The notes below the pieces were generated by a model that did not search any database, had not been told where the DNA came from, and saw only the letters and a list, made by a program, of their open reading frames with translations. A stretch of 24,930 bases of DNA from a virus. A program made the position numbers and the translations under genes. Location: IMG/VR virus record IMGVR_UViG_3300037141_000023, positions 1-24,930 of that record; one strand, written 5' to 3'. Positions 2,256 through 21,589 of this stretch are shown here, in pieces. Numbering within the stretch: position 1 is the first letter of the stretch; the number at the start of each line of letters is the position of its first letter.

Positions 2256-3557
2256 CTAGATGGTGGAGTAGTACACAGTGCAAACACAAGTGCCCGTACC
2301 TGCGGCGAAGTTCGCGGATGTGGTTTCAAAGATTACGTCATCATTTTGCACACCAAGGGTACCCGTTGTTGAAGTGCCGTCAAGCGCGTTAAACACGTAA
2401 TCGAGCGTGCCTAGCGTAGAGCCGGTAACAACGGTCGCCGATGGCCCGTTGGTTATGTCAACGGTGCCGGTTCTGTAGCAAAAATGGCCGCCCCCACCGC
2501 CCGTATACCCAGTGCTAGTGCGCGTCATGCGCCAATCAATGCAGTGAACCACGGTCAAGTGGGTTGCGCCAGGCGCGGGAACCAAAATGATCGGAGTCGT
2601 TTTGCTTAGCAGCAGTTGAGCCGAAGATACGTTAACGGTGGCAACCAAATAGTTTTGGGCTGCCGGTGCCGATCCCGCCGTGGCCGTCGTGGTGCGCCCT
2701 TGGTTGTCTACCGTTATAGACGTCGGGTATGCGTAAGTAGCACTACCAAGACCGGTGTTTTTTAAGGTGGTAACGCCGGCGTTGTTCATGGTGACGTCGC
2801 CGCTTAGTGCGGTCGCTACGGGCACGTTAGAAGCGTTGCCCACGTAGGCGCTACCGCTAGCGAGTGGGAGCATTTGAGCGCCGGTTAGGTTGTTCTCAGG
2901 GCTGATCGTGGCCCCGTTTCCCGCCCAGTAACCGACTTGCCCGGCGACGCCATTGGCAACAGTGCCGGACCCGCCACCGCCGCCTGATCCGTTAGTGGCG
3001 GAAGTTAGGCGCCCGTCGGCGCCCACGGTGGCGTTTAAGTCGGTGTACGAACCGGGGGTTACCCCAGACGGGGCCACGTCTAGGTTGTAAGTACCCCCAC
3101 CGCCAGTGATCGCCACGGAGGCGCCAGAACTTGTCAAGTTTATACCAGCGCCCACTAGCGCCGCCGTTTGCTGGCACATGATGGTTACTTTGTCCATCAT
3201 AGACTCTAGAGTTTTTAGCGGGATGGCGCCGTTGTTATTGAACGAGTTCATTTGCAATAGGTCGCTTACCCGTTGGATAACCAGCGGTAGCGACGCCGTA
3301 GGCGCTGAGTTAAACGTAACCGTGCCGCCGATACCGTTAGTGTTTTGGTACACCGTATACGAGCTGGTCGCTTGAGTCGCACCGTTAACCGTCACCACCA
3401 TCTGTGTCGGGTCAATCAACCTCCACGTAAACGCATAGACGGTCGTCACCCCGTCGGTCGTGTAGGAACTGAGTGACGTAGTGTTAGGGACGGTTGCCCA
3501 TGCCGTGGTGAAACCAAACAGCAGGAGCGCGAGTACCGTTAATAAGTAGCGTTTCAT
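2256..3557 (-). CDS. Tail fibre with T7-type attachment domain behind a signal peptide
   Basis: The start is the ATG at 3557 (ATGA overlap with the previous gene; GGAG 8 nt upstream). The 433-aa product begins with a Sec-type signal peptide, residues 1-21 (MKRYLLTVLALLLF, ending TAWA before TVP). Residues about 27-130 resemble the N-terminal virion-attachment domain of T7 gp17 (TTDGVTTVYAFTWRLIDPTQ, VTVNGA, TFNSAP, PLVIQRVS, and a late IPLKTLESMMDKV helix). Residues 165-300 are stalk repeats typical of phage fibres (YTDLNATVGADGRLTSATNG; GVAGQVGYWAGNGA; TSITVDNQGRTTTATAG), and 302-433 form a beta-rich tip domain with four Cys. No alternative start lies between the leader and the attachment domain. 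The stop is TAG. It probably recognises the host surface; the leader is unexpected for a fibre assembled in the cytoplasm. Confidence 0.8.
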   Translation of the reverse strand: MKRYLLTVLALLLFGFTTAWATVPNTTSLSSYTTDGVTTVYAFTWRLIDPTQMVVTVNGATQATSSYTVYQNTNGIGGTVTFNSAPTASLPLVIQRVSDLLQMNSFNNNGAIPLKTLESMMDKVTIMCQQTAALVGAGINLTSSGASVAITGGGGTYNLDVAPSGVTPGSYTDLNATVGADGRLTSATNGSGGGGGSGTVANGVAGQVGYWAGNGATISPENNLTGAQMLPLASGSAYVGNASNVPVATALSGDVTMNNAGVTTLKNTGLGSATYAYPTSITVDNQGRTTTATAGSAPAAQNYLVATVNVSSAQLLLSKTTPIILVPAPGATHLTVVHCIDWRMTRTSTGYTGGGGGHFCYRTGTVDITNGPSATVVTGSTLGTLDYVFNALDGTSTTGTLGVQNDDVIFETTSANFAAGTGTCVCTVYYSTI

Positions 3558-4390
3558 TGTTCGTTCTCCGGTGGCTTCTTAGGGGTCAAGTGGTCGAGCC
3601 ATTCTAGCGGCTGCTTAGGTATCGGCCGGTTAAGCCCTTGCACTACATGGGTCATCATCAGCACAACGTGGTGCGCGGTTTCCTCGCCGCTCATGATCTC
3701 TTGCATGTCGTGCGGGAGATCCACCAATACGTTTATGGCGTGCAGTATCGGGTGGTCGAGCTTAAAGACTTTGTTTTTCTCGTTACATACGAGGTTGCCT
3801 ACGCCGCTGTCAACGCCGTGGGCGATCTCCGATGCAGGGTAAGTGAGCCCGGCAAACTTCATTTTCTGCACCCATTCGTGGGCGTTGTCGTCCGCATTCT
3901 CTTTGGTGTCGAAAGCTATTTTCCAAAGGAGGGGGACCAAAGCGAACAGCCCGGCTGATATGCTGCCGACGACCTGCGCCCGCACCAAGTTTTTTACGTT
4001 CTCTTCTGTCGGGAAGTTCGCAGCGATGCGCGCTTTCTCCATTACGGCCGAGGCGATCGCGTCCTCCGGTTGGTGGAATTGCTTAAGCGACTTGCCCCAC
4101 GGGTGGCGCCCCAAGTCGGATACCTTCGCAACCGAGCTTGACGCGAGCAGGGATTCAACCGCCTGCACGGCTTCTGTGTTGGCCGTCTCTTCGCCGCCGC
4201 CCTCACTTCTTACGAAGTCGCGCACGGCGGCCATGATGGCGTAATACGCCTTGGCGTCACCGAAAGGAAACGGCGCCATGCCTGCGTTCTGTATTCGGCG
4301 TGTGCGAGGCGTTAACGAGTCGGGGCTCACGTTGGCGCCGATGCGCGATTTATGGGCGTACCTAACTCGCGCCGCGTCCCACTGGGACAT
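3554..4390 (-). CDS. C-terminal part of gp16-like internal virion protein, after an in-frame amber
   Basis: This 278-aa frame is continuous with the upstream 942-aa frame: only TAG at 4418-4420 and nine sense codons (TDGGAARAE) separate them, in the same phase. The first ATG is at 4390; its GGAG abuts the ATG with no spacer, so independent initiation looks poor. The product has a helical N-terminal region rich in basic residues, a hydrophobic helix around VVGSISAGLFALVPLLW, and ends in GLNRPIPKQPLEWLDHLTPK. Nothing resembles a stand-alone enzyme. Together the two parts would make about 1230 residues, close to the size of T7 gp16 (1318). I infer that it is the C-terminal segment of one ejection protein, made by readthrough, or a fragment created by a nonsense mutation. 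Confidence 0.65.
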   Translation of the reverse strand: MSQWDAARVRYAHKSRIGANVSPDSLTPRTRRIQNAGMAPFPFGDAKAYYAIMAAVRDFVRSEGGGEETANTEAVQAVESLLASSSVAKVSDLGRHPWGKSLKQFHQPEDAIASAVMEKARIAANFPTEENVKNLVRAQVVGSISAGLFALVPLLWKIAFDTKENADDNAHEWVQKMKFAGLTYPASEIAHGVDSGVGNLVCNEKNKVFKLDHPILHAINVLVDLPHDMQEIMSGEETAHHVVLMMTHVVQGLNRPIPKQPLEWLDHLTPKKPPENEQ

Positions 4391-4417
4391 CTCCGCTCGG
4401 GCCGCGCCGCCGTCGGT

Positions 4418-4420
4418 CTA
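4418..4420 (-). other. Single in-frame amber codon interrupting the gp16-like reading frame
   Basis: Reading on the minus strand gives S I W K F, TAG, then T D G G A A R A E M S Q W D A A with no further stop until 3554. The distance from TAG to the next ATG is exactly 27 bases. The surrounding codons are TTT TAG ACC. Other genes here also end in TAG (2256, 10161, 10591, 14662), and none of the other accepted coding frames contains an internal TAG, so general amber recoding is not supported. Local readthrough, a natural gene split, a nonsense mutation and a sequencing error all remain open. Confidence 0.85.
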
Positions 4421-7246: not shown

Positions 7247-9618
7247 TACTTACCGCCTGTAAACGTTTTACGCACCACGTCTACCGTGTCAACAACGGGG
7301 TTGTGCTCTTCACCGTGCCCGTCTTGGTGCTCGGCGCCGGGTATGACGTGCTGCCTAACAACATCAATCGGGTTCTGACCACCACTCACTACGCCGCGTC
7401 CTTTATAGACTTCATAACCTTCTGGAATAGAGCGAACCGCGCTGGGGTGCCCGTCTTCCAGCACCATATTCTGCGCCTTCTGCAATTGTATCTGAAGTTC
7501 TATAGGTGTCCACTTCTGCGCCTTTGCTGAGTCGCGGGCTATCTGCGCAAGACCGTCGTAACGATCTTGCATGTCCGGCGTAAAACCAAGCTCGTAGTTG
7601 TTATTCCGCGCCTGCTGGTCGTTCATCAGCCCGTTGATGATCCCGGTTATCTTGGCGGCGGCTGCCGAGCGCTGTTTCTGCGCCTGGTCAAAGTTGGCTT
7701 TCTTTTGTCCGAACATGTTAAGGATCGCTGGATGCACTGGGATATGCATGTCAAACGGCCCCGCTGCCATGTGGTTTTCCTGGTTCACCATAGGGTACCG
7801 GCCGAATGTTTGCGGAACGTCCCAAACCACGCTGTTACCCTGGTCAGAGATCGCCAGCGCGGCGTCCTTAAGACTGGCTGCGCGCCTTGGATTGATGAGC
7901 CCCTTGGCCTCGGCTTGGGTTACCTGGCGGGTTAAGTGCTGCCCGAGCTCGACTATGGACCCCATGTTCTGGATAGCGTCGATGTCCGCGTAGCCCTTCA
8001 TCTGCGTAATGATGTGGTACGCTTCGCCGTCGGCGCTTAAAATGGCTGCTTTCTTTTGGGCTTTATTTACCGCAGCCGTAGACGCGCCCTTGATAAAGTG
8101 GTTGGCCTGCGCTGGCGTGAGGACACCCGCTGCCTGGGCGGCAAGCGCCTTCTTCTCGACGCTACCATGTAGCGCTTTTATCTGGTCTGCGTTAGCCTCG
8201 GGGTTCTGGTTTAAGTCGGCTATCTGGCGCGTGTCCGCGAATAGTTCCATTTGCTTAACCGCGTTCATGCTGCGATCTTGTAACCGCTGTTCGCGCCGCG
8301 CGTCTGACTGCTCGCGCCGCGCTTCCATCTCGGCTTCGTGACGCGCTTGTTTGGCCGCGGTCGCTATCGCGTTTCGGTTGGTGGTTGCCTCACCATAAGC
8401 CGTTCTAAGGTTGCTTATACGCGCATCGCGGTTAGCTATGTACTGGTTCTGCACCTCTTCCGGTATGCTTTTGTCCGCAAGTTTCCCCGCCACGTCTGTT
8501 TCGACGTTCTTAATCGCGCTCAGGATATGAAGCTGCGCGCCTTGCTGGTAGCGATCGCTACCCGCGTTTACTTTGATCTCACTATGAAGCTTGGCTACTT
8601 CGTTGTCCTCGTGCAGATTCATATGCTTAAGGTGCTGCCCGAGTTCCGTGCCGTACTGCCGCATATCTACGCTGGCCGAATCTAGTAGCCCTATTTTGGC
8701 CGTCGCGTCCATCGGTCCTAGCTCGTCGTTGGCTATCGCGTTGCCGATATTACGCGCATACGCTACGCGCCCTTCCATAACTTTTGTTTTCTCTTCCGGC
8801 GTGGCGTCGTACGGTACTCGCGGCGCGCTCTCCAATAGTTTCTGACCAAGGGTTACCGGTAGACCGCGCACTTGCTGAGCGGCTTTCAGCGCCTCCACTG
8901 GTAGTGCAGTGGCCGAGCCCTTCAGCGCGTTACTTGCGATGGCCATGATATCGCTGCCCTGCTTAAGCATCTCTTCCGGCGTGCCGGTCATAGACGAGAT
9001 CTCAGCGGCTGCCTTTAGCGGGACGCCCTCGACAAACGCTTGCGACTGGGCGTGCTGCTTGCCCTGCATCCAACTATACGCAGCCTTGTTCTCCGACAAA
9101 GCGCTAGCATCGATGCCCGCCTCTAGCTTGTTACGCGCGGCAAGCTGCGTACTGTTCCCCTTTGCGTCGTTGTACTGCTGGTCGAACATGCCGAGCGTGA
9201 GATCTCTAGCCTGCTCGTGGTAGTCTTTTAAATCCGCGACTGCCTGCGCGGGGTTATCCGCGTTCTTGGATTGCAGGTCCATGCGCTTCTGGTAGGCGAC
9301 GCTGGCGTATTGAGAGTTGCCCTCTTCCGCGCCCTGGTCGGCTTGCAACGTGGCTTGCTGAGCGGCTTTGTGCGCCACGTCATTAAGATGGCGCGTGATC
9401 TCACCACCAATAGCTGACCCTAAATACGGTGCCTGTTTGGTAAACGGTTCGAGTATCGCGTTTAGCTTCGTGAGCTTCGATTGCCCTATCTGTTGGCGCA
9501 CGTCGCCAATATCTTTGGCCAGTGACCTAAAAGTTTCGCCCGGCGCGTTGTTAATCCCCGGCGTGCCGACTGCCAGGTTTGGTATTGAGCCTTCGCTGTA
9601 TGGTTTTATCTCTACCAT
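7246..9618 (-). CDS. gp15-like internal virion (ejection) protein
   Basis: This 790-aa protein is close in length to T7 gp15 (747 aa). It is almost entirely charged, alpha-helical sequence rich in Ala, Gln and Lys, with coiled-coil-like stretches such as QARHEAEMEARREQSDARR in the middle. It has no signal peptide or membrane segment. Such proteins form part of the internal core and then the trans-envelope conduit for DNA. The order gp13/gp14-like, this gene, then the gp16-like gene matches T7. The ATG at 9618 follows the upstream TAA directly, with AGG about nine bases before it. The assignment rests on order, size and composition more than on a diagnostic motif. Confidence 0.72.
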   Translation of the reverse strand: MVEIKPYSEGSIPNLAVGTPGINNAPGETFRSLAKDIGDVRQQIGQSKLTKLNAILEPFTKQAPYLGSAIGGEITRHLNDVAHKAAQQATLQADQGAEEGNSQYASVAYQKRMDLQSKNADNPAQAVADLKDYHEQARDLTLGMFDQQYNDAKGNSTQLAARNKLEAGIDASALSENKAAYSWMQGKQHAQSQAFVEGVPLKAAAEISSMTGTPEEMLKQGSDIMAIASNALKGSATALPVEALKAAQQVRGLPVTLGQKLLESAPRVPYDATPEEKTKVMEGRVAYARNIGNAIANDELGPMDATAKIGLLDSASVDMRQYGTELGQHLKHMNLHEDNEVAKLHSEIKVNAGSDRYQQGAQLHILSAIKNVETDVAGKLADKSIPEEVQNQYIANRDARISNLRTAYGEATTNRNAIATAAKQARHEAEMEARREQSDARREQRLQDRSMNAVKQMELFADTRQIADLNQNPEANADQIKALHGSVEKKALAAQAAGVLTPAQANHFIKGASTAAVNKAQKKAAILSADGEAYHIITQMKGYADIDAIQNMGSIVELGQHLTRQVTQAEAKGLINPRRAASLKDAALAISDQGNSVVWDVPQTFGRYPMVNQENHMAAGPFDMHIPVHPAILNMFGQKKANFDQAQKQRSAAAAKITGIINGLMNDQQARNNNYELGFTPDMQDRYDGLAQIARDSAKAQKWTPIELQIQLQKAQNMVLEDGHPSAVRSIPEGYEVYKGRGVVSGGQNPIDVVRQHVIPGAEHQDGHGEEHNPVVDTVDVVRKTFTGGK

Positions 9619-10185: not shown

Positions 10186-10604
10186 TTCTTGTATTCAGTG
10201 CCAGTATAGCCCTCACAACTAAAACCCAACGCGGTCATCCACCTATTAACCTGGTAGCGGTTAACGCTGGCGGTTTCCGCGCGATCACACCAATCTTTCC
10301 TCAAGACGTGCTCGAGGAACCTCCTGGCCAGTTTGTGAAAAACTTTCGGGTGCTTCTGTATCCCGGTCTTCTCGGGGATGACGAAGACTTCCGCTACCCC
10401 AGGGCTCGACTCGAGAAACCCGCCGACAAACAAGACCTGACCGTCACGTCTCACCGTGCCGCAGAAAGCGCGGTCAGTGTTAGCGGCGTTTAACGACGCC
10501 ATCTTATCCGCCATCTCAAGCGCTACGCCTTGCTCACCGACGAACTTAAACCCGTCGAAGTCGAGAAACTTAAATGGAGTTACCTCGGTTCTAAGGGGGT
10601 GCAC
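10161..10604 (-). CDS. gp13-like protein with GNAT-like fold
   Basis: The start is GTG at 10604, supported by AGAGGGG about seven bases upstream inside the end of tail tubular B (14-nt overlap). The 147-aa sequence has the layout of a GNAT-like domain: a helix at 27-40, strands around QVLFVGGF (56-63) and AEVFVIPE (71-78), a helix at 86-103, and a terminal NRYQVNRWMTALGFSCEG block where GNAT proteins place the final helix and GF strand. T7 gp13 and relatives (DUF2833) share this layout and position and are needed for virion morphogenesis. The usual acetyl-CoA loop (Q/RxxGxG/A) is not seen, so enzyme activity is doubtful. The stop is TAG. Confidence 0.65.
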   Translation of the reverse strand: MHPLRTEVTPFKFLDFDGFKFVGEQGVALEMADKMASLNAANTDRAFCGTVRRDGQVLFVGGFLESSPGVAEVFVIPEKTGIQKHPKVFHKLARRFLEHVLRKDWCDRAETASVNRYQVNRWMTALGFSCEGYTGTEYKKWVRWAQA

Positions 10605-13251
10605 TCTTGTACCCCTCTACATCTAGGCCGAGGACGCAGCACCGCGTGGGGTCTTGCTGCACTACCACAACTTCTTTTACGCCGAGGTCGTACTGATCCC
10701 AGTTCACGGTATCGACTACGCCAGTAAACGGCTGCGCAGGCGTGCCCGCTGCTTGCCCAGCGGGTCTGAAATAAATCTCTTGCAGGTCGTAATCAGACGT
10801 ACCAACCTTGCCACCAAAGGAAGTATCAAACCTCGGGCGAATCCTGTTGACTATGCGCGGCTTGTTGGTGCCCGGTCCTGAAGACGTGAGGAACGCCAGG
10901 TTCTGCGTAGCGAGACGCCCGGTGTAGGAGAAGCCGAAGTTTGCCACGCTTACGTAGTATTCAAGCGTCGCTACGCCGGTAGCCGACACGGTGACCGCTG
11001 GGTGAGCGCCGCCGTCTGCTTGAACGTTTATCGTCTGCCCAGCAAATAGCTGCAGGTTTACCACTTGGTTAACGGCGAAGTACCATGAGCCAGCGGCAAT
11101 CGGGGTTAAGCTGTCGAAGTTCACCAATACGTCGGCGGTAACCGTGGTGCTGTTCACGTACGCGGTGATTCGCGCCTGCCCGGTAAACGCGCCGCCGGCA
11201 CCCAGGTTTTTCCAGACTTGAGAGCCCACGTCGGCTGGTTGGAAAACCGCCGCGCTGGCTGTCAAGGTTATGCACGCGCCAGTTGTGGCGCTTGGCGTCA
11301 TGGTGGCGCCGGCGGCCAGCCCCCGTGCGGTGCCGTTGTAATTTAGCGCCATGTCGAGGTAGCACAGTCCCTTAGCCGCTTCCCAGCATGAGTTAGCCCA
11401 AAGCTGGTCGTCGGCGTACTTCGCTGCGTCGCCCGAGCCCCCAGACCAAAACGTCCGACGCAAAGGTAGCTGAGTCGGGATCGACATAACCTCGACGGTG
11501 TTCACTACTTGGGCGCTGATCGTGCGCTGGACCGTCATGTAGAGGCGGTCGTAGCCGCTTGATTCGCGTATGGAACAAATGTCTATTACTTGCCCACCGC
11601 CCCCGACGTAATGGCGCGCCCAGGCGCCCACGTAGCTGTCTACCGCGGTTGCCACCAAGTCTTTTGAATCGGTGTTAGTGAAGGTGAAGGAGAGCAAAAC
11701 CCCGTCGGCGCGCAGTACGAAAATTACCTCCGGAACGCCCTTGACATGGCAAAGCTTGATGAAAGGCGACTCCTTACCAAAGTGCTCTGAGTCCTTGTTC
11801 ATGTCGAGCGGCACGAAAGCGCTTGAATAAAAATTGAATTGCAGCGCGCGTAGCTTCTTTTGGTTGGCGTCAACGAACATAAGACTTTGGTTAATCGCCA
11901 CGGGCTGCACATTGGCAGCGCCCTGAATCGTGGAGAGCTCCCCGATAGCCGTTGGGTTTGGTGGCTGCCCTGTTTGAGCGCCGTAAGCTTGCTGCACAGC
12001 GGTATTACCAAGTAGCGACAACATGCCGCCAAACGGCTTCACTTCTAAGATCGCGTCGATCTCGCCGTTGATGGGTGAGAATTGGTAGGCGTACGCCATA
12101 TCGTCGGTAGCGCCGGTTGAAAAGTCGTCGTAGTTGGTTTGCGTGCCGGGGGTGTATCCGCTACCCGAGCCGGCGCCAGGCAGCCGAGAAGCCCACAAGC
12201 CCATCGGGTTTAACCGCGAGTTAACGTAGCACAGGCGCCCGTCTGGGGTGAAGCAAACGCCGCGCGGGAAGTTGTTGACCAGCTTAACCGTGCCGCCACT
12301 TGAGTATGAGTGGTATCTGGTTGTGTCAAGGGGGTTGCCGGCGGTGTCCTCAAGCGAAAACGTAGTGCTGGTCAGGTTCGCCACGATATAGTTGTTGCCT
12401 GCTAGCTGTTTCATGGACCCGCTACCAAGCCCATAAATCTGGATCACGTTGCCGTTTGCCAAGCCCGTGGTCGACGCAACCGTCACGACACCGGGGAGCG
12501 CTCGGGTAATCCCGGTTATGGCGTAAGTGGTGCCACCGGTAAAAGGATCGTTTGTGCGGCTGAACGTGTTGATCGCCCAGCTAGCAAACGCGCTGCGCAC
12601 TAGTTTTTCAGGCGCGTAGTTTTGATTGACGATGTAACCGACGTCGGCAGTTTGCGCCCAGCGAAGCAGCGGGAGGTCAGGAAGTAAATAGGGCGTGGCA
12701 AGCGTGTAAACCGACGCCACGGTGCCGTTAGCGGTCCAAGCCGTGTACGTAGTCGAATCGACGTTATTACCAAATTGGTCTTGAAGCTGGAACGTGTTGG
12801 TCGTCTGGCCCGCCACGGTGTAGAGACGCCCGTTAACCTGCTGCATACCCCATACGCCTGAAATATAGACTTGTTGCCCGTTTGAGTAACCGTGCGCGGT
12901 AGCGGTGACGACTGCGGGGTTCGCTTGGGTGACACCGGATATGGTGACAGGCGAGTTTAGTATGAGCCCGCCGTTACGGTAAAACCGCATGGTGCTGTCG
13001 GTTATCTCAATAACGATCGCGTCTAGCGCGCTGAACTGCCACGGCATTAAATACGCGGTGGCGTTCGCATTGGTGGTCGCGCAAAGCTGGTTACCTGTGC
13101 GGTAATCCGCGGGCCCTTGCGGCTGAATAATAAAGTTCTGGCACCAGGTAAGCGACTTGGCGTAACCGGGGTCGTCTGTGCGTGCTGCCATGAGCGGCGA
13201 TTTTTCACCGCCTGAAAAGTCTATCAGTGACGGGCTAGCGCGCTCTGCCAT
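10591..13251 (-). CDS. Tail tubular protein B (T7 gp12-like nozzle)
   Basis: This 886-aa protein (T7 gp12 is 794 aa) opens with SLIDFSGGEKSPLMAARTD and a TWCQNFIIQPQGPADYRTG segment, both hallmarks of podovirus tail tubular B proteins (FsgGe.sp....R.D...Y...l....N....p.G....R.G). Two beta modules of the type often annotated as FCCH-like sit at about residues 102-178 (VTISGVTQANPAVVTATAHG) and 243-324 (YAITGITRALPGVVTVAST). A later beta module lies near 670-740. The protein should form the hexameric tail nozzle. It directly follows tail tubular A (ATG at 13251 next to its TAA) and overlaps the gp13-like gene. The stop is TAG. Confidence 0.87.
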   Translation of the reverse strand: MAERASPSLIDFSGGEKSPLMAARTDDPGYAKSLTWCQNFIIQPQGPADYRTGNQLCATTNANATAYLMPWQFSALDAIVIEITDSTMRFYRNGGLILNSPVTISGVTQANPAVVTATAHGYSNGQQVYISGVWGMQQVNGRLYTVAGQTTNTFQLQDQFGNNVDSTTYTAWTANGTVASVYTLATPYLLPDLPLLRWAQTADVGYIVNQNYAPEKLVRSAFASWAINTFSRTNDPFTGGTTYAITGITRALPGVVTVASTTGLANGNVIQIYGLGSGSMKQLAGNNYIVANLTSTTFSLEDTAGNPLDTTRYHSYSSGGTVKLVNNFPRGVCFTPDGRLCYVNSRLNPMGLWASRLPGAGSGSGYTPGTQTNYDDFSTGATDDMAYAYQFSPINGEIDAILEVKPFGGMLSLLGNTAVQQAYGAQTGQPPNPTAIGELSTIQGAANVQPVAINQSLMFVDANQKKLRALQFNFYSSAFVPLDMNKDSEHFGKESPFIKLCHVKGVPEVIFVLRADGVLLSFTFTNTDSKDLVATAVDSYVGAWARHYVGGGGQVIDICSIRESSGYDRLYMTVQRTISAQVVNTVEVMSIPTQLPLRRTFWSGGSGDAAKYADDQLWANSCWEAAKGLCYLDMALNYNGTARGLAAGATMTPSATTGACITLTASAAVFQPADVGSQVWKNLGAGGAFTGQARITAYVNSTTVTADVLVNFDSLTPIAAGSWYFAVNQVVNLQLFAGQTINVQADGGAHPAVTVSATGVATLEYYVSVANFGFSYTGRLATQNLAFLTSSGPGTNKPRIVNRIRPRFDTSFGGKVGTSDYDLQEIYFRPAGQAAGTPAQPFTGVVDTVNWDQYDLGVKEVVVVQQDPTRCCVLGLDVEGYKSAPP

Positions 13252-13953
13252 TTAGAAAAACCCGCCCCAGTCGTCGGACCCGGTTAAGCGCCCCGCGCGA
13301 ATCGGATCAGGTTGCACCCACGTAATTGGGTTCTCTTGGCAGTTCGCGCCAATGGCGAGCTTAAGCGACTCTTCGTAAAACTCGGTAAGCGCCCCCACCA
13401 TTTGGGTGTTGCCGGTTACGGGGAAGCACAAAGCGATAGCGAGCTTATACACCAAGACGTCGATAAACAGCGGGTCGTAATCAGAGATCGCCGTATCATC
13501 GGAAACATAGAGGATGTCAATTGACGGTATCGGCACCGGCGGGCATACCTGCACCGGCTGCTGATATATAACCGCAGGACCGAGCGCCGGCTGAAATGGG
13601 TTTGTCAGGACGTTGCGGCCCTGAACCTTATAGAAAATTTTGCAATAGTCGTTGTAGACGTCCCAACCAATTTGGCACAGTCTGAGCAGGTTATTCGGAA
13701 AAGCGTAGGTATATAGCTGCGCGAGCCCGTCCATGCTGATGATCGGTGCCGCTTCGGTGAGCGTGACCACGCCTCGCACGGTGGCGAAGTTCCACGGTTC
13801 TTGACGCAGAAGCGATCGCCGCTCTTGGTCGTAAACCATGTTGCCCGCGCGAGCCGCGGGGCTGTTTAGGTCGTCGAGCGAGGTTATCGGTTTAGCGTAG
13901 AGTTTCGATAGCGCCAGATTTACCAGGTCCAGCGGTACCCCCGGCGCCGCCAC
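13252..13953 (-). CDS. Tail tubular protein A (T7 gp11-like head-tail adaptor)
   Basis: The protein is 233 aa (T7 gp11 is 196). The N-terminal half carries the family pattern: DLVNLALSKLYAKPITSLDD, NSPAARAGNMVYDQERRSLL, RQEPWNFATVRG, and a YTYAFPNNLLRLC segment. It forms the dodecameric ring between portal and nozzle. The start is GTG at 13953, three bases after the TAA of the preceding gene, with only a weak ribosome site, so translation is probably coupled. It lies directly upstream of tail tubular B, as in T7. The C-terminal 40 residues (NPITWVQPDPIRAGRL) are also typical. Confidence 0.85.
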   Translation of the reverse strand: MAAPGVPLDLVNLALSKLYAKPITSLDDLNSPAARAGNMVYDQERRSLLRQEPWNFATVRGVVTLTEAAPIISMDGLAQLYTYAFPNNLLRLCQIGWDVYNDYCKIFYKVQGRNVLTNPFQPALGPAVIYQQPVQVCPPVPIPSIDILYVSDDTAISDYDPLFIDVLVYKLAIALCFPVTGNTQMVGALTEFYEESLKLAIGANCQENPITWVQPDPIRAGRLTGSDDWGGFF

Positions 13954-13956
13954 GGC

Positions 13957-14604
13957 TTAGCTTTCGCCAAAAATATCGAGCCCGTTAATCACGACGTCGG
14001 CGGCCCCAGTGGTCGCTGGAACGCTAATCTTAACGTCCAGGGCCCCTGTGGTAGTTTGGGTTTCGGAAGCGCTGAGCCCGTTTAACAAAGCTGCGTTGGC
14101 GTACCCACCAATGTTTAATTGCTGGGTGTTGAGCCCGGTTGGGTAAATCTCAAAATCTATGCAGAAGTCTTTGGCGTTTGACGCCGCGTTTAACAGCGCA
14201 ATGGTGGCAGTGCCGAACACTAAGTTAATTACTTTGGTGTTGCCGTTAGCGGCGCACTTGCCGTAAACCCTGCCGCGCAATACGCGGGCGTCGCCTTGCA
14301 CCGGGGTTGCCTTGGTTGAGAAGGTGTAAGCCGGCAGGGTCTGCCCAGCCACCACCGTAGCGGTAGTAAGAGACGAAAGCGGCGTAAGCAGCGCGTATAT
14401 TTGCCCGATAGCGAGGTGCTGCTGAGCGATACCGCCAAGCGGGCCTCCCCCCATGTGCAGCGTTACCTTGCGGTAAAAGTGCGCGTTAGCCCTGAACGCT
14501 TGCTCGTTAGACGCGTTAATCTGCCCGTTGGTTTGGAGTTGCGCGAGAGCCGGGCTCATGGAGCTTATAAGGCTAAGAATCGCGGCTGCTAGTGCTCGTT
14601 TCAT
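13957..14604 (-). CDS. Signal-peptide beta-sandwich protein, probable virion or fibre-type protein
   Basis: This 215-aa protein begins with a clear Sec signal peptide, residues 1-21 (MKRALAAAILSLISS, ending in PALA before QLQ). The ATG at 14604 has AAAGGA six to seven bases upstream. The mature part has a segment VLRGRVYGKCAANGNTKVIN (about 108-127), then LVFGTATIALLN and alternating beta strands to a DVVINGLDIFGES end. A G.v.g....NgN.K.i.l.fG pattern is common in jelly-roll domains of phage fibre and decoration proteins. It sits between the capsid unit and tail tubular A, immediately after a hairpin. It might be a head or tail decoration or a secreted adhesin; which one is not decided by sequence. 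Confidence 0.65.
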   Translation of the reverse strand: MKRALAAAILSLISSMSPALAQLQTNGQINASNEQAFRANAHFYRKVTLHMGGGPLGGIAQQHLAIGQIYALLTPLSSLTTATVVAGQTLPAYTFSTKATPVQGDARVLRGRVYGKCAANGNTKVINLVFGTATIALLNAASNAKDFCIDFEIYPTGLNTQQLNIGGYANAALLNGLSASETQTTTGALDVKISVPATTGAADVVINGLDIFGES

Positions 14605-14621: not shown

Positions 14622-14641
14622 AGCCGGGGTTACCCCCGGCT
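14622..14641 (-). terminator. GC-rich hairpin after the capsid unit
   Basis: Arms AGCCGGGG (14622-14629) and CCCCGGCT (14634-14641) form a perfect 8-bp stem with a 4-base loop. On the minus strand the hairpin is followed by TTCTAAAAGG, a weak U-tract; on the plus strand it is followed by GTTTTT. It may thus be a leaky terminator or an mRNA-stabilising stem for late transcripts. Its place, after capsid and head protein and before the tail tubular genes, matches Tphi of T7. The Shine-Dalgarno of the next gene starts just downstream. Confidence 0.65.
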
Positions 14642-14661
14642 GTTTTTCGACTCTTCTAGTC

Positions 14662-15171: not shown

Positions 15172-15204
15172 TTGTTTAGCTCCTATAAGCTCTTGGGATG
15201 CGCC

Positions 15205-16116
15205 TTAGTAGGCTTGGGTAGTGATTGCCTGAACGCGAGGGCCTTCCATACGGACCACGCCCATTTGACCTTCAGCGGTGATTTGGGTTGTTCTCCACAC
15301 GTTCTCCAATTGCTGGATAACGCGCACTTCCCAGGCTTTCTGCAACCGAACCCGCAGACCGCCGGAAGCGACGGCAAAGCATGTACGAAGCGTGTTGACC
15401 ACTGGAAGCTGCGGAGTGGGCATGAGCGAACCAAAGACAACCACCTCAAAGTCACCGGCTCGGGTCAGCTTGCCGTTTTCAACGACGCGCTGTTCCACGT
15501 AGTCACGTGAGGTTAGGGTGCCTTCCTTCATCAGTTGTTGGTGCTCTTGCTCAGAGATGAACAAGCCCTTGCGCATTTGAGTCTGACCGCGTGAGTCTGT
15601 CTCAATTTCAGCGCCCTGGAAGTAAGCATCCAACTGCAAAATCGTTTCGTACGTGAAGCCTTGCGAGGCGTCAAGGGTCTTCACGCCATCAGTACCAGAG
15701 GTTACCGGTACGCTAGCGGCTCTACCTGTGTTGACGGTTGCGGTTAACGCGGTAACGCACAAGCGGTCGAACTTACGCTCAAGAGCTTGGATGCAACGCA
15801 TTGCGACGATGCTGTTAGGATCGGTGAGCATACGCTCGGCGTCCCATCGATCAATCCAGATCGGTACGCCGAAAGATTGACCCACCAATTGGCGGGTATC
15901 CCAAGGCATGTCGTCTGGGTTGATACGCGGTGACCTGGTATTCAAGTCTTGCGCTTCTACGGAGCCGACTCGGTTTTCCATCGAAAACTCGCCGGTTAAC
16001 TCTTTTAGCTCAACAAATGGGCGAAAACGCGCCTCTGTCTGTTGGGCCAGTTCAAACATGGTATCGGAAAACTGCGTAACGAGTACGTCAGCAATAGTTG
16101 CGCCAGTAGCGGCCAT
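15205..16116 (-). CDS. Major capsid protein
   Basis: This 303-aa protein has features of HK97-fold capsid proteins of BPP-1-like podoviruses. An N-terminal helix (TIADVLVTQFSDTMFELAQQ) leads to an E-loop-like region with SMENRVGSVEAQDLNTRSPR. A RWDAERMLTDPNSIVAMRC spine-like helix follows, then RKGLFISEQEHQQLMKEG and the beta-rich C-terminal part VRVIQQLENVWRTTQIT. It builds the icosahedral shell on the scaffold. The ATG at 16116 has GGAG eight bases upstream and a 120-base leader from a strong promoter. Its separation from the scaffold gene by 5.5 kb is unusual, because the two are normally adjacent. Confidence 0.85.
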   Translation of the reverse strand: MAATGATIADVLVTQFSDTMFELAQQTEARFRPFVELKELTGEFSMENRVGSVEAQDLNTRSPRINPDDMPWDTRQLVGQSFGVPIWIDRWDAERMLTDPNSIVAMRCIQALERKFDRLCVTALTATVNTGRAASVPVTSGTDGVKTLDASQGFTYETILQLDAYFQGAEIETDSRGQTQMRKGLFISEQEHQQLMKEGTLTSRDYVEQRVVENGKLTRAGDFEVVVFGSLMPTPQLPVVNTLRTCFAVASGGLRVRLQKAWEVRVIQQLENVWRTTQITAEGQMGVVRMEGPRVQAITTQAY

Positions 16117-16269: not shown

Positions 16270-16273
16270 TCAA
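16245..16273 (-). promoter_or_regulatory. Sigma-70-type promoter for capsid
   Basis: On the minus strand TTGACA (16273-16268) is followed by exactly 17 bases and TATAAC (16250-16245). The -35 is a perfect consensus and the -10 differs at one base. The -35 overlaps the TGA of the glycosidase gene (16270-16272). Initiation would be expected near 16238, giving a leader of about 120 bases before the capsid ATG. It is the only match of this quality that I found in a gap between genes, and it implies that host RNA polymerase boosts capsid expression. Confidence 0.75.
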
Positions 16274-18522
16274 TTACTGTACACGCGTAGGTCATCCATC
16301 GTCAAATGCGGCGGGCTGCCCTGCCAGGTGTAAGGCGCATTGCTCACGTGCGCTGAGTCGTAATCCGGGTCGTTGCCCCAGGTTGCCGCTGTCAGGTTGT
16401 ATCGGATAGCCGTGACGTTGGTGAGCGCTGTCGGCAAAACAAAATGCTGCTGCCATGTTCCAGCCGTGAATGACTCGAAGTTGCAACCTGTACCCATGTT
16501 GGCGAAGCTTGTGCTAACAGAATCAGCAGTGGGCGCAGTGTAATTTGCAATGCCGTTCTGCCAAGTACCTGCTACAAAGGCATCAATGGTGTAAGCGAGC
16601 GCCGCCGACTGACTTTGGAACGGCCGCCCTGATAATACGCCGATGCGCTTGACGGTCTGACCTGAGCCCCATGTCAAAGTAAGTGTGATCGGCATGATGT
16701 TATTCGTGTCGCTGTACATCAGATTCGACGGATCGTAATAACCGCTGTTAAGTAGATTGTCGTTGACTCGTGACAGTATTGTGAGCGATGCGCCGCTTGT
16801 TACCGTTGGCGTAGCCGTAGTCGCGATATTGGTTGCAGTCATCAAGCCGTTACCGATATCAGTGACAGACAAAGCTGTGGTGCTGGTTACGTAAATCGGT
16901 AAATCAGTCAAAGTAAGATTGCCGCCAGCAACCGATACTGAGTTGCCCCAAATGTCGACGGCAGAGGTGGCACCACTGACAGTGCAGTTAATCGATGCCA
17001 GTCCACTTGTGAATAGCTGTGTTACGTAGCCGCTAGCATTGGACCACTGATATGCTTTTACGTAGTCGCCTGCATTACCGAGATTGAGCGCACCGACTGG
17101 AGTGGCGCCCCAGGTTTGTTGACTGAGCACACGCAAGGCGGGAATCGACGGTAGACAATCTTGATTTGTTTGGCCTATGGTCACACCGGTAGTGATGTTT
17201 TGCTGGATCATCGAAAACGTAGGGAATGTCCAGAACCCGTGCGAGATGTCGTAGAACCATGACTGTTGTTGATGCGGTATGCCGTACATTTCCATTTGCC
17301 CTGCTTGCCGCACCGCTTGAGCGGCTTGGCGCCGGAACTTGTACAAACCGTCAGGGTTTGTGCCGCACGCCATACCAACTTCGTCGCACCATATGGGTGT
17401 AGAGCCGTAGCCGTTATTGGACATGGTTGTTTTTAGAGCGGGTAGCGACTGCTCCCCTTCCCATATTTCATCCCCTTGAACGGTGTTGTATAGGTGGATA
17501 GACAGTCCGTCAAGGTGTGGGGATAAGGCGAGAAAAGAGTTAAGCCAGGTTTGTAAACCGCCGCTAAGATTGAAGCCAACGATGCTAGGTCCGAGAATCT
17601 TTGCACCGGGCGCCCCCGCGTGCACGGCAGCAACAAATTGAGCGTGGAGTGCGGCAAACGCTGAGGGAGTGTAAGCGGATTGCGGTTCGTTGTAACCTAT
17701 GTACGCAACCTGAGTACCAAGGATAGCCGCGCAGGCGGTGACGTTTGCAATGTCTTGTGCACTGCCTGAGAAATTTGGGAAGCTAGCTAAGTGCAGATGA
17801 GGGCGCACAGAATCCATGGTCATAGCGCACCAACCAGCGGTTAAATCTGTGTTTAGATCAGCAAGGTACGCGTTGGCGTCCGCTTGTGCCGCTGCTGTTG
17901 TGGTGCGCTCAGGAAAAGCTAGCCTCATTGGACCTGTATCAAAACACCCATGCATACCTGGACACGCGCTTATGTCGCCAGGGTCGCTAGCGAGATTGCC
18001 TGCATTCCAACTGTATGCAGGCGCTGATAAGTATCGAGCATCCGACGGTTCGTAATTGAAGAGGCACCAGCCCCTAGCATTGCCCGCAAAATTCGTAGGC
18101 TCTAAATTGGGGTCGAATAACCGCAACTCGTACCAACCGTATTTAGATATTGCCGGGGGTGTGAGTGTATACGGGAGCGCCGGGGTGCCTCCGATTAGCG
18201 TTTGAGGTACAATCAAAGCGCCGCTAATATCTGAGATCGTGTACGCGATACCGGCAGGCATCGTCGTATAAATTGGGCCGCCGCCACCTGTAGTTAGCTG
18301 CGATGCAATCGTGAACGAGATTGCCCCGCTCGTAAAGGTGTTGTACGCATTAGGCGTGGACACCGAGAGCGGCCACCTATACGGGATCGTATTAGGGTAG
18401 TTTATTGTGGGGTAACTGAGTGGACCGCGTTGCGGCGAGAGCGTGCTACCGGTTGCCCCTTGTGCAAACGACGGAAGCGCTACCGTAAAGAAGCATATTA
18501 TGAGCGCTAGCAGTTTCCGCAT
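16270..18522 (-). CDS. Secreted clan GH-A-like glycoside hydrolase with C-terminal discoidin-like module
   Basis: This 750-aa protein starts with a Sec signal peptide (MRKLLALIICFFTVALPSFA, then QGA). Residues about 195-460 look like a TIM-barrel glycosidase. YIGYNEPQSAY holds the NEP motif with predicted acid/base Glu279, DGLSIHLYN (338-346) matches the H.Y strand, and TPIWCDEVGMACG holds the predicted nucleophile Glu381; WFYDISHG follows at 422-429. A beta-sandwich with VDIWGNSVSV and LPIYV (522-545) is like that found after the barrel in GH39-, GH51- and GH79-type enzymes. Residues 580-750 resemble an F5/8-type carbohydrate-binding domain ending in MDDLRVYSN. It probably cleaves a surface or extracellular polysaccharide. 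The start has no clear ribosome site and lies one base after the previous stop, so coupling is likely. The family number cannot be fixed by eye. Confidence 0.75.
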   Translation of the reverse strand: MRKLLALIICFFTVALPSFAQGATGSTLSPQRGPLSYPTINYPNTIPYRWPLSVSTPNAYNTFTSGAISFTIASQLTTGGGGPIYTTMPAGIAYTISDISGALIVPQTLIGGTPALPYTLTPPAISKYGWYELRLFDPNLEPTNFAGNARGWCLFNYEPSDARYLSAPAYSWNAGNLASDPGDISACPGMHGCFDTGPMRLAFPERTTTAAAQADANAYLADLNTDLTAGWCAMTMDSVRPHLHLASFPNFSGSAQDIANVTACAAILGTQVAYIGYNEPQSAYTPSAFAALHAQFVAAVHAGAPGAKILGPSIVGFNLSGGLQTWLNSFLALSPHLDGLSIHLYNTVQGDEIWEGEQSLPALKTTMSNNGYGSTPIWCDEVGMACGTNPDGLYKFRRQAAQAVRQAGQMEMYGIPHQQQSWFYDISHGFWTFPTFSMIQQNITTGVTIGQTNQDCLPSIPALRVLSQQTWGATPVGALNLGNAGDYVKAYQWSNASGYVTQLFTSGLASINCTVSGATSAVDIWGNSVSVAGGNLTLTDLPIYVTSTTALSVTDIGNGLMTATNIATTATPTVTSGASLTILSRVNDNLLNSGYYDPSNLMYSDTNNIMPITLTLTWGSGQTVKRIGVLSGRPFQSQSAALAYTIDAFVAGTWQNGIANYTAPTADSVSTSFANMGTGCNFESFTAGTWQQHFVLPTALTNVTAIRYNLTAATWGNDPDYDSAHVSNAPYTWQGSPPHLTMDDLRVYSN

Positions 18523-18523
18523 T

Positions 18524-20077
18524 TTAGTTCTGATCCATAAGTATCGACCGTACTCGGACGTTAACCGCAGTGGAAAGCAGGTTAGTTATGGAAACGCCTG
18601 GGATTAATTGGTAGTTAGTATTCGTCGTGGGTAAACTTGTGGTGATCACTGCAACCGATACACCGTTGATGTAATACGTAATCTGTCCAGCGGTCGACGT
18701 ATCTATGGCAAACGTGTAGGTAGTGTTGGAAGTAACCGCTACGGTTGTGGTGGTTACCGCCGAGTTACCGCTTGTATTGCCGTTAAAGCATCTCCAGTAA
18801 GGCGTACCATCAGCCGTGGTGTCATACCGGAAACCTGTAAAAGCATCAGAGGGGGTGGCTGTTGCAAAATCTGTAGCGGGGCTGTTGAACATCCCTATCC
18901 AGTATCTGCAAGTCACAATGTCGGTTGAGTTAGGCCCGGTGCTAACCGTTGCTATCATTCGCGGCAACTGCCCGGTGTACACGGCGGCGCCAACGTCGTA
19001 AACATACGCGCTATTATTAGTACTGGCAGTTGTCGCCAAGTTAACAAAACCGGTGTAATTCACCCCGGCCAACGTTCCTGCTGTGGTCCCGTTCCCCGGA
19101 GCGGCTACACCGCCAATTCTGTTAAAATTGTTGCCATTTGTAGATGCGTTAATCTGCGTAAAGGTACGCGGGGTTGTTGTCGTTATCGCGGGGAATGCGC
19201 CGCTTGAACCGCCGCCAGAGCCGTTAGCAGCGGCTGTAATCAAACCTTTCGCGTTTACCGTTATGTTCGCGCTAGTGTATGAGCCAACATTGCTGTTAAC
19301 GGTGGCAAGAGTACCGACACCTGTTGAACCGGGTAGCGTAAAATCGCCGCTTACGGTAGGTGTGCCACCAAAGGCCCCGCTGTTGTTGTATTGAAGGTTG
19401 CCAGAAGAGCCACCAGGTGAACCGGAGCCAGCATTAGCCCAAGTCAATTGGAGCGGGCTGGTGGTGCCGCCCGGCGTTAAAACTTGTGTTGAACCCGTCG
19501 GCAAAGCTGCTGGGAGCTTGTAGACGACCGATACGCCGGTTGCCGGTGCTTCAATGGTGCTTGTGTTGGAGTCACCGCTATCGGCAAAGAGGATGCCGCC
19601 AAGCGTTGAGCCAGGGTTGCCTAGACTCAAAATGCCGTTGGTAATCGTCATCAGCGCATTGCCGGTTAGCTGCGCACCGGATGACGCGTAGTATGCAACT
19701 TGGCCAGCTATAGCAGCGTTGACGGCGTTTGCGTAAGCGCCAAATACGGTTGCCCCATTCCAACCTAAGCTTGTGTTTGCTGTCGGCGTGGCATTAACGT
19801 CTAGCGTTGGCGCAGAACTTGTTCCGCCCACAACTATGGTCCCCAAGGGACTTGTGATAGTGACCGAACCCCCGCCACCGCCAGATGAGTTGATTGTGAC
19901 AGCGCCCACACCAGAAGTTGGGCTGATGGTGACGTTTGTACCAGCGATGATGCTGGTCACACCGCCAGCACCCCCGGCAGCTTGAAACGTGTAAGTGTCG
20001 GCGTAGACGTAACCGATCGACGCAAAAAGAGAAAACAGGATTGCGACCCAGGCCGCCGTCAACTTAGCGTATTTCAT
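18524..20077 (-). CDS. Fibre-like protein with signal peptide and lectin-like C-terminus
   Basis: I choose ATG at 20077 (517 aa) because GGAG lies six bases upstream; a TTG two codons earlier is possible. Residues 1-26 are a signal peptide (MKYAKLTAAWVAILFSLFAS, cut after YVYA). Residues 27-39 (DTYTFQAAGGAGG) match the upstream gene exactly. The middle has fibre-stalk motifs: AGQVAYYASSGAQLTGN, GSSGNLQYNNSGAFGGTP and YTSANITVNAKGLITAAANG. The last ~135 residues look like a concanavalin/LamG-type sandwich (RYWIGMFNSP, FRYDTTADGTPYWRCF, TYTFAIDTSTAGQITYYING). It overlaps the preceding gene by 14 bases. It probably binds host or environmental glycans; whether it is part of the virion is unknown. 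Confidence 0.75.
   Translation of the reverse strand: MKYAKLTAAWVAILFSLFASIGYVYADTYTFQAAGGAGGVTSIIAGTNVTISPTSGVGAVTINSSGGGGGSVTITSPLGTIVVGGTSSAPTLDVNATPTANTSLGWNGATVFGAYANAVNAAIAGQVAYYASSGAQLTGNALMTITNGILSLGNPGSTLGGILFADSGDSNTSTIEAPATGVSVVYKLPAALPTGSTQVLTPGGTTSPLQLTWANAGSGSPGGSSGNLQYNNSGAFGGTPTVSGDFTLPGSTGVGTLATVNSNVGSYTSANITVNAKGLITAAANGSGGGSSGAFPAITTTTPRTFTQINASTNGNNFNRIGGVAAPGNGTTAGTLAGVNYTGFVNLATTASTNNSAYVYDVGAAVYTGQLPRMIATVSTGPNSTDIVTCRYWIGMFNSPATDFATATPSDAFTGFRYDTTADGTPYWRCFNGNTSGNSAVTTTTVAVTSNTTYTFAIDTSTAGQITYYINGVSVAVITTSLPTTNTNYQLIPGVSITNLLSTAVNVRVRSILMDQN
19965..20077 (-). repeat. 113-bp direct repeat, copy A (signal peptide cassette)
   Basis: This matches 21136-21248 at an offset of 1171 bases with a single mismatch (A at 20040 versus G at 21211, giving Ile versus Thr at residue 13). 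It encodes the first 37-38 residues of the fibre-like protein. The last codons and the stop of the upstream gene (EIR and TAA at 20066-20064) are read from the same repeat in another frame. Confidence 0.95.
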
Positions 20078-21248
20078 CGCCAACTCCGAGCAGGCAAACT
20101 TCGCCGTGTCCGTCGAGTCCTACGCCGTTGTTGAGCAGGAACGCAGTTTGGCGGAAAGTGTCGTTATCCTTGCTTTCAAGCGCTGCGATAAAGCTTGTGT
20201 TCTCGCGCTGCGTCCACTTCACCAGCTCGCCTTGTCGCCCTAATGCTTGCTCGCACTGCGCCAGGGTTTTCATGTCAGCGGTGCGCTTTTCGTGCATTGC
20301 GATAAGCGGGAGAGATGGCGTTCCAGTAATAGAAATAGCTACGCCGGAAGAGCCAGCGGCGCTGAGCCCTACGCCGGAAGAGCCAGCCGCCCCGCCTGAA
20401 ACGTTAGTGGTTCCGCTGAGCGTATTCGAAGGGCTCATTGCGAGGCTAAAGCCACCGCCTCCTCCTCCACCAGCACCTCCAGTCCCCACTGAACCACCAG
20501 CCCCCCCAGAAACATTAACGGTCGAGCCCGAAGAGTGGGTAATTGAGACGAGGGAGTACTCATACTCGCCACCACCTGAGCCACCACCACCTGCGTTATA
20601 GTTTGGAGTTGTAGTGACACTGCCTCCTACTGCTGATATGAGGCCGCCACTGGGAAGAGAAATAGGACCGGCGGAGACCAGCCGGACACATCCGCCCCCT
20701 GCTGCGCCGGAAGAGCCACTGGAGCCACTGGTGCCGCTCCCACCTCCGCTCCCAACAGCCCCGTAACTTAACGCTACTGCGGCACCGCCAGTACCTTGGT
20801 ACGAAGAGTTACTGTCTTCCGTATTTCCACCGGCACCGCCGAAGCCACCGCCACCGCCACCCGTGTTATAGGTACTGGTCCCTCCGGATACCCCGCTGCC
20901 AAACGCATAATTGTTGGAGCCGACGAGGTAAACCCCTCCCGGCATTGCGGTTGCAACCGACAACGTTCCCGGCACAGAGATAGAGGTTGTGGCATCTATC
21001 TGCGAGCCGCTTTGCACCGTGTACGTGTCGCTGGCTGTGTTTGTCCAAGTGGTGGCATTCTGTTGGATAATTGTTGATTCGGTTGTCGCTACTTTGGTAA
21101 TCGCGCCATCAACACCGTTGCCGCCTAATGCGCCACCAGCACCCCCGGCAGCTTGAAACGTGTAAGTGTCGGCGTAGACGTAACCGATCGACGCAAAAAG
21201 AGAAAACAGGGTTGCGACCCAGGCCGCCGTCAACTTAGCGTATTTCAT
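20064..21248 (-). CDS. Glycine-rich adhesin-like protein with signal peptide
   Basis: This 394-aa protein starts at ATG 21248, overlapping the previous stop as TAATG. Residues 1-26 are a signal peptide nearly identical to that of the next gene. Residues 40-120 are beta-rich (TWTNTASDTYTVQSGSQIDA). Residues 128-310 contain at least five runs of Gly (TYNTGGGGGGFGGAGGN, AAGGGCVRLVSAGPI, NYNAGGGGSGGGEYEY, GGAGGGGGGGFSL), like polyglycine domains of phage adhesins such as gp38 of T4-like phages. The last 75 residues change to charged helix (HEKRTADMKTLAQCEQALGR). Its last residues are encoded by the leader repeat of the next gene. Host receptor or polymer binding is plausible; a structural filler role is an alternative. 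Confidence 0.7.
   Translation of the reverse strand: MKYAKLTAAWVATLFSLFASIGYVYADTYTFQAAGGAGGALGGNGVDGAITKVATTESTIIQQNATTWTNTASDTYTVQSGSQIDATTSISVPGTLSVATAMPGGVYLVGSNNYAFGSGVSGGTSTYNTGGGGGGFGGAGGNTEDSNSSYQGTGGAAVALSYGAVGSGGGSGTSGSSGSSGAAGGGCVRLVSAGPISLPSGGLISAVGGSVTTTPNYNAGGGGSGGGEYEYSLVSITHSSGSTVNVSGGAGGSVGTGGAGGGGGGGFSLAMSPSNTLSGTTNVSGGAAGSSGVGLSAAGSSGVAISITGTPSLPLIAMHEKRTADMKTLAQCEQALGRQGELVKWTQRENTSFIAALESKDNDTFRQTAFLLNNGVGLDGHGEVCLLGVGDEIR
21136..21248 (-). repeat. 113-bp direct repeat, copy B (signal peptide cassette)
   Basis: This is the second copy of the repeat at 19965-20077, covering the ATG, signal peptide and first mature residues of the glycine-rich gene. Identity ends precisely at the start codon on one side (CATTAG versus CATCGC) and within the GGAGG codons on the other, so the duplicated unit is a translated leader module. 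Confidence 0.95.
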
Positions 21249-21589
21249 TAGTGCGCGAAAACCCCCACGGAAACCGTCCCGGTACCAGTGATTAGCGAAA
21301 AGCTTTTAAGCGCCGCGTTTGGGTCAAAATAGCTATACGCGGTTTGCGGCAAAATCGGTGCACTGCTCGTAGTGGCTGGCGCCACGGCGCTGAAATAAAC
21401 CGTCGCCGTGGTCGAGAGGTTCACTACCGTGATACTCGCACTCTGCGAGTTAAGCGACACGACGCCGCTTGTCCCTGTGGCCGAAATCGTTTCAAAGGTC
21501 ATCGCCGCAGGGCCGACAATCGGACCCGCCAACGCTGGCGAGATAACCAGCGACAACGCCACCGACAGTGCCGCTAAAAATCTACGCAT
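21248..21589 (-). CDS. Small secreted beta-rich protein
   Basis: This 113-aa protein has a textbook signal peptide, residues 1-21 (MRRFLAALSVALSLVIS, then PALA before GPI). The ATG at 21589 has AGGAG eight bases upstream, overlapping the scaffold stop region. The mature part of about 92 residues is beta-rich and Ser/Thr-rich (TSGVVSLNSQSASITVVNLS, ATVYFSAVAPATTSSAPILP) and ends TGTVSVGVFAH. The pattern resembles small phage proteins that form a single beta-sandwich. It is the first gene of the cassette between scaffold and capsid. I do not recognise the family. Confidence 0.65.
   Translation of the reverse strand: MRRFLAALSVALSLVISPALAGPIVGPAAMTFETISATGTSGVVSLNSQSASITVVNLSTTATVYFSAVAPATTSSAPILPQTAYSYFDPNAALKSFSLITGTGTVSVGVFAH

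Follow-up and report, generated by a model that had tools for sequence, protein, structure and literature searches.

Sec signal peptides in front of a T7 gp17-type tail fibre suggest that some tailed phages may complete their virions outside the cytoplasm

To our knowledge, the assembly of tailed phages is taken to be wholly cytoplasmic. The question raised by the locus described here is why a late phage gene module should then encode a tail fibre, and a set of further proteins, with N-termini that resemble Sec signal peptides. The DNA analysed (the window) is the whole of IMG/VR record IMGVR_UViG_3300037141_000023, a linear viral fragment of 24,930 bases. Its late module lies on the minus strand and runs from the portal through a small protein, a scaffold-like protein and four signal-bearing genes (113, 394, 519 and 750 aa) to the major capsid protein. 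These are followed by a 169-aa protein, a 215-aa signal-bearing gene, tail tubular proteins A and B and an acetyltransferase-like gene, and finally by internal virion proteins, a 278-aa protein, the signal-bearing fibre, a 96-aa protein with one hydrophobic segment, a lysozyme and a papain-like peptidase (Table 1). Pelagiphage HTVC035P, Alteromonas phage ZP6 and uncultured phage MW202485 are annotated with the same late order but lack the signal-bearing extras.

Table 1. Features of the window; a slash marks the predicted signal peptidase cut.
Feature	Positions	Strand	Evidence and remarks
Portal (head-tail connector), no signal peptide	22845..24644	-	PHROG 332, E=2.8e-65; score -7.95
113-aa protein; signal peptide 21527-21589	21248..21589	-	score 13.85; SD AAGGAG
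394-aa Gly-rich protein; signal peptide 21171-21248	20064..21248	-	score 12.55
Signal cassette copy 1: signal peptide plus TYTFQAAGGAG	21136..21248	-	113 bp, one mismatch to copy 2
517-aa protein (519 aa if TTG 20083); signal peptide 20000-20077	18524..20077	-	score 13.8
Signal cassette copy 2	19965..20077	-	113-bp block, one mismatch to copy 1
750-aa protein; signal peptide about 18463-18522	16270..18522	-	score 14.5; cut SFA/QG
Major capsid protein, no signal peptide	15205..16116	-	Phage_capsid_2, E=7e-21; PHROG 3437; score -2.7
215-aa protein; signal peptide 14542-14604 and beta-sandwich fibre-type C-terminal domain	13957..14604	-	score 12.5
Tail tubular protein A, no signal peptide	13252..13953	-	PHROG 394, E=1.5e-30
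Tail tubular protein B / nozzle, no signal peptide	10591..13251	-	PHROG 376, E=1.4e-86
Tail fibre, 433 aa: signal peptide, T7 gp17-type head domain and C-terminal beta-type region	2256..3557	-	score 14.75; PHROG 1640
Fibre signal peptide MKRYLLTVLALLLFGFTTAWA, 21 residues	3495..3557	-	scorer; cut AWA/TVPNT; absent from nearest relative L007
Phage-lysozyme endolysin, without signal peptide or SAR-like N-terminus	1470..1922	-	PF00959, E=1.2e-26; score -6.1

Several other features of this region were recorded in passing. Tail tubular protein B contains an insertion matching the E1_FCCH domain (PF16190, E=4.4e-12), and the related nozzle proteins of two other contigs discussed below, L002 and L115, appear to resemble it. 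The peptidase gene (508-1611, minus strand) encodes a papain-family (C1) cysteine peptidase (PF00112, E=7.8e-12), stands at the end of the late and lysis region and overlaps the lysozyme gene. A small putative NlpC/P60-like or permuted papain-type protein adjoins the lysis genes and is common to the window (3-308, minus strand) and the related fragment L007 (5681-6145, plus strand), a similarity that was judged by eye. A strong GC hairpin of eight pairs with T-rich flanks (14622-14641) separates the 169-aa gene from the signal-bearing 215-aa gene and could be a terminator or an RNA-processing site; as a class, terminator-like sites are not in excess in the window.

Signal peptides were evaluated with a home-made log-odds scorer that combines n, h and c regions with a -3/-1 matrix. 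It was calibrated on 147 kb of E. coli K-12. In the calibration set, 22 annotated Sec substrates scored 7.5-13.9 (21 of them at 10.4 or above) and the maximum for 66 cytoplasmic proteins was 4.34; inner-membrane proteins overlapped the range of the Sec substrates, and most of these have later membrane segments. Against this scale, the six window genes (113, 394, 519, 750 and 215 aa, and the fibre) score 12.5-14.8, while the remaining 15 genes score -0.9 or less, with zero overlap. Both parts of what a sequence-only reading had claimed, namely Sec signal peptides at precisely these six N-termini and none on head, tail-tube and ejection genes, are thereby borne out. A score of 10 is reached by 0.8-3.9% of the shuffled N-termini of the six genes and by 1 of 73 spurious ORFs; on these controls, together with the calibration, a chance origin of the six signals was rejected.

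All six products have a basic n-region, a hydrophobic h-region and small residues at positions -3 and -1. Their cleavage motifs are ALA, VYA, VYA, SFA, ALA and AWA, so that the AxA type attributed to the whole set describes three of them (ALA twice and AWA) and not the VYA pair or SFA. Neither a transmembrane segment past the signal, nor a lipobox for SPase II, nor a twin-arginine (Tat) motif was seen when each was looked for in the six products, and export by the Tat or lipoprotein route was rejected given the absence of the respective motifs. Cysteine enrichment across the exported set was also considered and not found.

For the tail fibre, the placement of the signal can be read against homology. 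The PHROG 1640 tail protein profile matches fibre residues 22-132 (E=1e-15), and since residue 22 corresponds to profile position 2, homology begins at the residue immediately after the predicted cut. Over the head, the fibre aligns with its homologues at 29-37% identity. As in HTVC035P and ZP6, the gene belongs to the late tail module, where it comes behind those for the tail tubular and internal virion proteins. An incorrectly assigned start codon was rejected as an explanation, because the fibre ATG overlaps the stop codon of the preceding gene (ATGA), a usual phage junction, and because the next in-frame start codon does not occur before codon 36. With alternative starts available only this late, a signal-less form of the fibre would be hard to produce. 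Among the relatives found, the closest is the L007 fibre of IMG/VR contig 3300009510_000011, which starts GTG-TVPNTNYV and lacks a signal peptide; on the same contig is L002, whose capsid protein is 48% identical to that of the window. Export is thus not essential to this phage type, since the L002/L007 relative has a signal-less fibre. The low-charge composition of the window fibre, considered as an adaptation to export, proved not to be specific, as the signal-less L007 fibre has the same composition.

The rarity of this arrangement was assessed in IMG/VR, in 80 homologous heads obtained by tblastn or with a profile of the head domain and in 70 more obtained with a pattern beginning at ATG. 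A signal peptide was found on none of the 150 gp17-type heads examined (0/80 and 0/70, respectively), and nearly all of these control heads begin with Met followed by TV or TI, the first of these residues being equivalent to residue +1 of the mature window fibre. A degenerate DNA pattern requiring AxA directly before the head, for which the chance expectation is well below 1, identified in IMG/VR the window plus two more contigs. These encode a 724-aa spike (L114; MKRLLLALIFVFVGVSIAGA/TVNITT, score 15.1) and a product of 707 aa (L115; MKRLTAALVWALLLSWLTLVASA/TVTTTT, score 15.4). Relaxing position -3 added a product of 738 aa (L245; MKRLFLAIMLLWAGLVRA/TVTSTT), along with two noise matches. As a noise control, the strict pattern was applied to 257 Gb of bacterial and archaeal genomes and returned one unrelated match; this was considered as a host clue and set aside, as it lies in an unrelated frame of a LuxR-type regulator and matched by chance.

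The first mature residue also falls at position 2 of the PHROG profile in L114 (residue 21) and L115 (residue 24), and a canonical -3/-1 cleavage site is located at the homology boundary in all four signal-bearing gp17-type fibres. Like that of the window, the L114 fibre has no alternative start near the cleavage site. All of the signal-bearing fibres are known from metagenomic contigs. By profile search, each of the four contigs contains exactly one gp17-type head, with the proviso that the contigs may be incomplete, and the sole gp17-type virion anchor found there is therefore the one that carries the signal.

The four signal-bearing heads do not form a group in a maximum-likelihood tree built from 53 heads and imply four changes of state, both on the best tree and across the bootstrap range. 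The well-supported branches force at least two changes, and this is the safe number given that the bootstrap is not fully settled. The window head is sister to the signal-less L007 head (support 98/90), and a single origin of the signal-bearing fibres is not supported by the tree.

The other signal-bearing genes of the window are less readily assigned. The neighbouring 394- and 519-aa genes share a duplicated 113-bp 5′ block and differ in the rest of their products; since the two copies of this block have a single mismatch, the signal behaves as a cassette. The 519-aa ORF has GGAG just upstream of an ATG at 20077, and this ATG (517 aa) is more likely to be the start than the TTG at 20083. The description of all six genes as virion- or fibre-type stands, by homology, for the fibre (PHROG tail families) and for the 215-aa product (fibre-type C-terminal domain). 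It does not extend to the 113-, 394-, 519- and 750-aa products, which gave no significant family match in profile searches, the 519-aa product having one weak PHROG match of unknown function (E 0.01).

The C-terminal domain of the 215-aa protein yields a low-confidence beta-sandwich model with weak matches to lectin/CBM-like folds (best E 2.3e-3, low TM). Its counterpart in L002 (219 aa, 32% identity) occupies the same place before tail tubular A, and in the more distant L015 (contig 3300032893_000073) a longer, 375-aa counterpart is flanked by the capsid gene and a tubular-A-like gene. Both have signal peptides at comparable positions, so that comparison with homologues finds the signal of the 215-aa gene kept in relatives and that of the fibre absent from L007. 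Two further small signal-bearing genes are present in this nearest relative (L002 2680-3000, minus strand, and 9487-9825, plus strand), one of them between the scaffold and capsid genes, where the window has four.

The proposal that the set includes a glycosidase could not be established for the 750-aa protein, which failed every profile search, with no match in Pfam, PHROG, NCBIfam or PDB, and whose single-sequence structure model (pLDDT 32) is uninformative and not usable. Its motifs YNEPQS and WCDEVG (N-E-P and a later D/E), read by eye, make a clan-A glycoside hydrolase possible. No homologue of this protein was found in 299 Pseudomonadota genomes by a search without a positive control, and the 215-, 519- and 750-aa proteins gave no tblastn match in 50,697 phage records.

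Fibres with signals are in several cases accompanied by other signal-bearing products. The L114 contig (G005) encodes products of 724, 216 and 355 aa, the latter two fibre-like; the L245 contig (G305) encodes products of 738 and 215 aa; and G002 encodes products of 814, 375 and 148 aa. The 814-aa signal-bearing tail fibre of contig 3300032893_000073 has a C-terminus that matches the signal-less L007 fibre. In approximately 411 kb of flanks around signal-less gp17-type fibres, the signal-scoring genes are mostly spanin-like or lipoprotein-like, or apparently belong to a host that flanks a prophage. One large product stands apart, a 422-aa acidic signal-bearing protein downstream of a signal-less gp17-type fibre (L072 14051-15319, plus strand), which may be a further late protein that is exported.

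The sequences themselves show the signal peptides, where exactly they are placed, how rare they are, that they were gained repeatedly and that the head behind them is intact. Export of the six products as a set is well supported by the scores, by the exact prepending of the signal, by its absence from 150 homologous heads and by its recurrence in separate lineages, and also by additional fibre-type genes with signals that some of these phages carry. We accordingly regard Sec export with signal-peptidase cleavage, as predicted from these N-termini, as very likely. The sequence-only reading had left open what the exported proteins might do, listing coating or modification of the host surface, release of decoys or polymer-degrading enzymes, and attachment to virions at or after lysis. 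Among these options attachment is favoured, because the head is intact behind the signal and is the sole such head on each contig.

In the mechanism that we propose, the six products would be made late in infection as Sec preproteins, exported to the periplasm or beyond and then cut by signal peptidase I. Cleavage of the fibre would leave it with the same N-terminus as an ordinary gp17-type fibre from which Met has been removed. In its mature form the fibre would keep a working virion-attachment head and stay apart from the tails assembling in the cytoplasm until holin and endolysin lyse the cell and the compartments mix. Virion completion would then end with docking of the fibre on the tails, in which some of the other fibre-like products that are exported would probably take part. 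Given cytoplasmic tail assembly, an export signal and an attachment head, waiting outside and docking at lysis is the simplest reconciliation. Fibres and spikes of some tailed phages can join fibreless particles in vitro. For T4, the attachment of long tail fibres to fibreless particles is mentioned in a review (PMC3004832).

We hold this sequence of Sec export, cleavage and docking on tails at lysis to be the best explanation overall, with modest confidence. Docking at or after lysis, taken by itself, follows more weakly than export, and on the present sequences we would judge it evenly balanced. The more general proposal, in which virions are completed outside the cytoplasm by Sec-exported fibres that are folded, stored in the periplasm and docked on fibreless virions only at lysis, with several origins through grafting of a signal onto the fibre N-terminus, is offered tentatively, at slightly short of even confidence. 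Several considerations weigh against the best explanation: conserved heads could also persist if export were incomplete and a cytoplasmic fraction assembled, a second, signal-less fibre could lie beyond the 24.9-kb fragment, the L002/L007 relative has no signal on its fibre, and the signal-bearing fibres are all of metagenomic origin.

Of the other explanations, the one that survives best is that the fibres and spikes, once exported, work before lysis on the envelope of the host or on its surroundings and are not, or not mainly, virion parts. By blocking or destroying receptors they might keep superinfecting phage and new progeny from becoming trapped on the dying cell or on its debris; alternatively, they might be released as decoys or polymer-degrading enzymes. 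Such a role would suit the 750-aa protein, which lacks a virion-type head, and several other signal-bearing proteins without a known virion-anchoring domain, as well as the pectate-lyase-type GAxGDG motif present in the L114 and L245 spikes and in the 215-aa protein of G305. However, it leaves a virion-attachment head intact behind the signal in four fibres that are ungrouped on the tree, a head that would be superfluous for a purely secreted blocker, and no second, signal-less anchor was found on those four contigs. We therefore consider it unlikely as the main explanation.

Dual localisation, in which a leaky signal or fast folding and trimerisation of the fibre leaves a cytoplasmic part that assembles and an exported part with a side function or none, appears less probable still. 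Fast-folding trimeric fibres are in principle poor Sec substrates, and the signal-less relative indicates that cytoplasmic assembly works for this fibre type, but the signals are strong (12.5-15.4) and were gained repeatedly, and neither the window nor L114 has a downstream start from which a signal-less form could be made. A reading of the N-terminal segments as hydrophobic anchors that stay uncleaved, or as chance sequences, in either case without an export role, could be entertained given a home-made scorer, but is very improbable in view of the canonical cleavage site at the homology boundary in 4/4 gp17-type fibres, scores that overlap those of genuine E. coli Sec substrates and lie above every cytoplasmic control, the independent gains and a scorer that fires on 1 of 73 spurious ORFs.

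With respect to folding after export, the L114 and L245 heads each contain a Cys at mature head position 13 and a second at 73 or 68. This pair occurs in none of 110 unique control heads, 101 of which have no Cys at all; it is present in two of the four signal-bearing heads and absent from the window and L115. The Cys-pair heads, located at L114 4260-6434 and L250 375-2591, contain a candidate disulfide. A periplasmic disulfide, formed as the protein folds in an oxidising compartment, would fit this pattern, and in some lineages the folding of exported fibres perhaps involves such a bond.

That a cleavable export signal has more than once been grafted to the end of a fibre that attaches to the virion breaks the rule of wholly cytoplasmic assembly. 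It suggests either an assembly step that follows lysis, by which progeny could be kept from adsorbing before their release, or a second role of the fibres as secreted proteins that act on the envelope. A signal peptide directly before a gp17-type head also provides a simple sequence signature with which cultured examples might be found.

With respect to known systems, the window head is complete and is homologous to the T7 gp17-type fibre/spike head (PHROG 1640 and 13893; solved in Dpo31, PDB 8ck1 / 28lx), and its gene has the same place in the late tail module, downstream of the genes for tail tubular and internal virion proteins. Whereas T7 gp17-type fibres start the head at, or within a residue of, the translation start, the window's cleavable Sec signal replaces the initiator Met. 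Late proteins with Sec signals are familiar in tailed phages as SAR endolysins and Rz1 lipoproteins, and signal peptides have been reported on SAR endolysins and spanins (PMC9144972, PMC10820202, PMC10194101), on Lom (PMC12309495) and, in JKP2, are also listed on an internal virion protein (PMC10194101). Those SAR endolysins and Rz1 proteins serve lysis, whereas the window's six signal proteins are fibre-like or unassigned and its own endolysin (1470-1922) is signal-less, without the N-terminal signal anchor on a muralytic enzyme that defines the SAR type. Lom of lambdoid phages is likewise a phage-coded secreted or outer-membrane protein encoded near tail-fibre genes (PMC12309495), but it is an outer-membrane beta-barrel expressed in lysogens (lysogenic conversion), whereas the window's signal proteins are encoded among the late structural genes and comprise, with others, the very fibre that attaches to the virion. 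Similarly, the minor coat protein G3p of the filamentous phage M13 serves virion adsorption and is made as a preprotein that is exported through Sec (PMC8310372). M13 proteins, however, stay membrane-anchored and join virions during extrusion without lysis, whereas the window phage is a tailed phage whose fibre is soluble, whose tails assemble in the cytoplasm and whose lysis is of the holin/endolysin type. No report of a tail fibre with a Sec signal was found in the open-access literature searched, and what appears to be new here is a gp17-type tail fibre whose defining cytoplasmic N-terminus is replaced by a predicted export signal.
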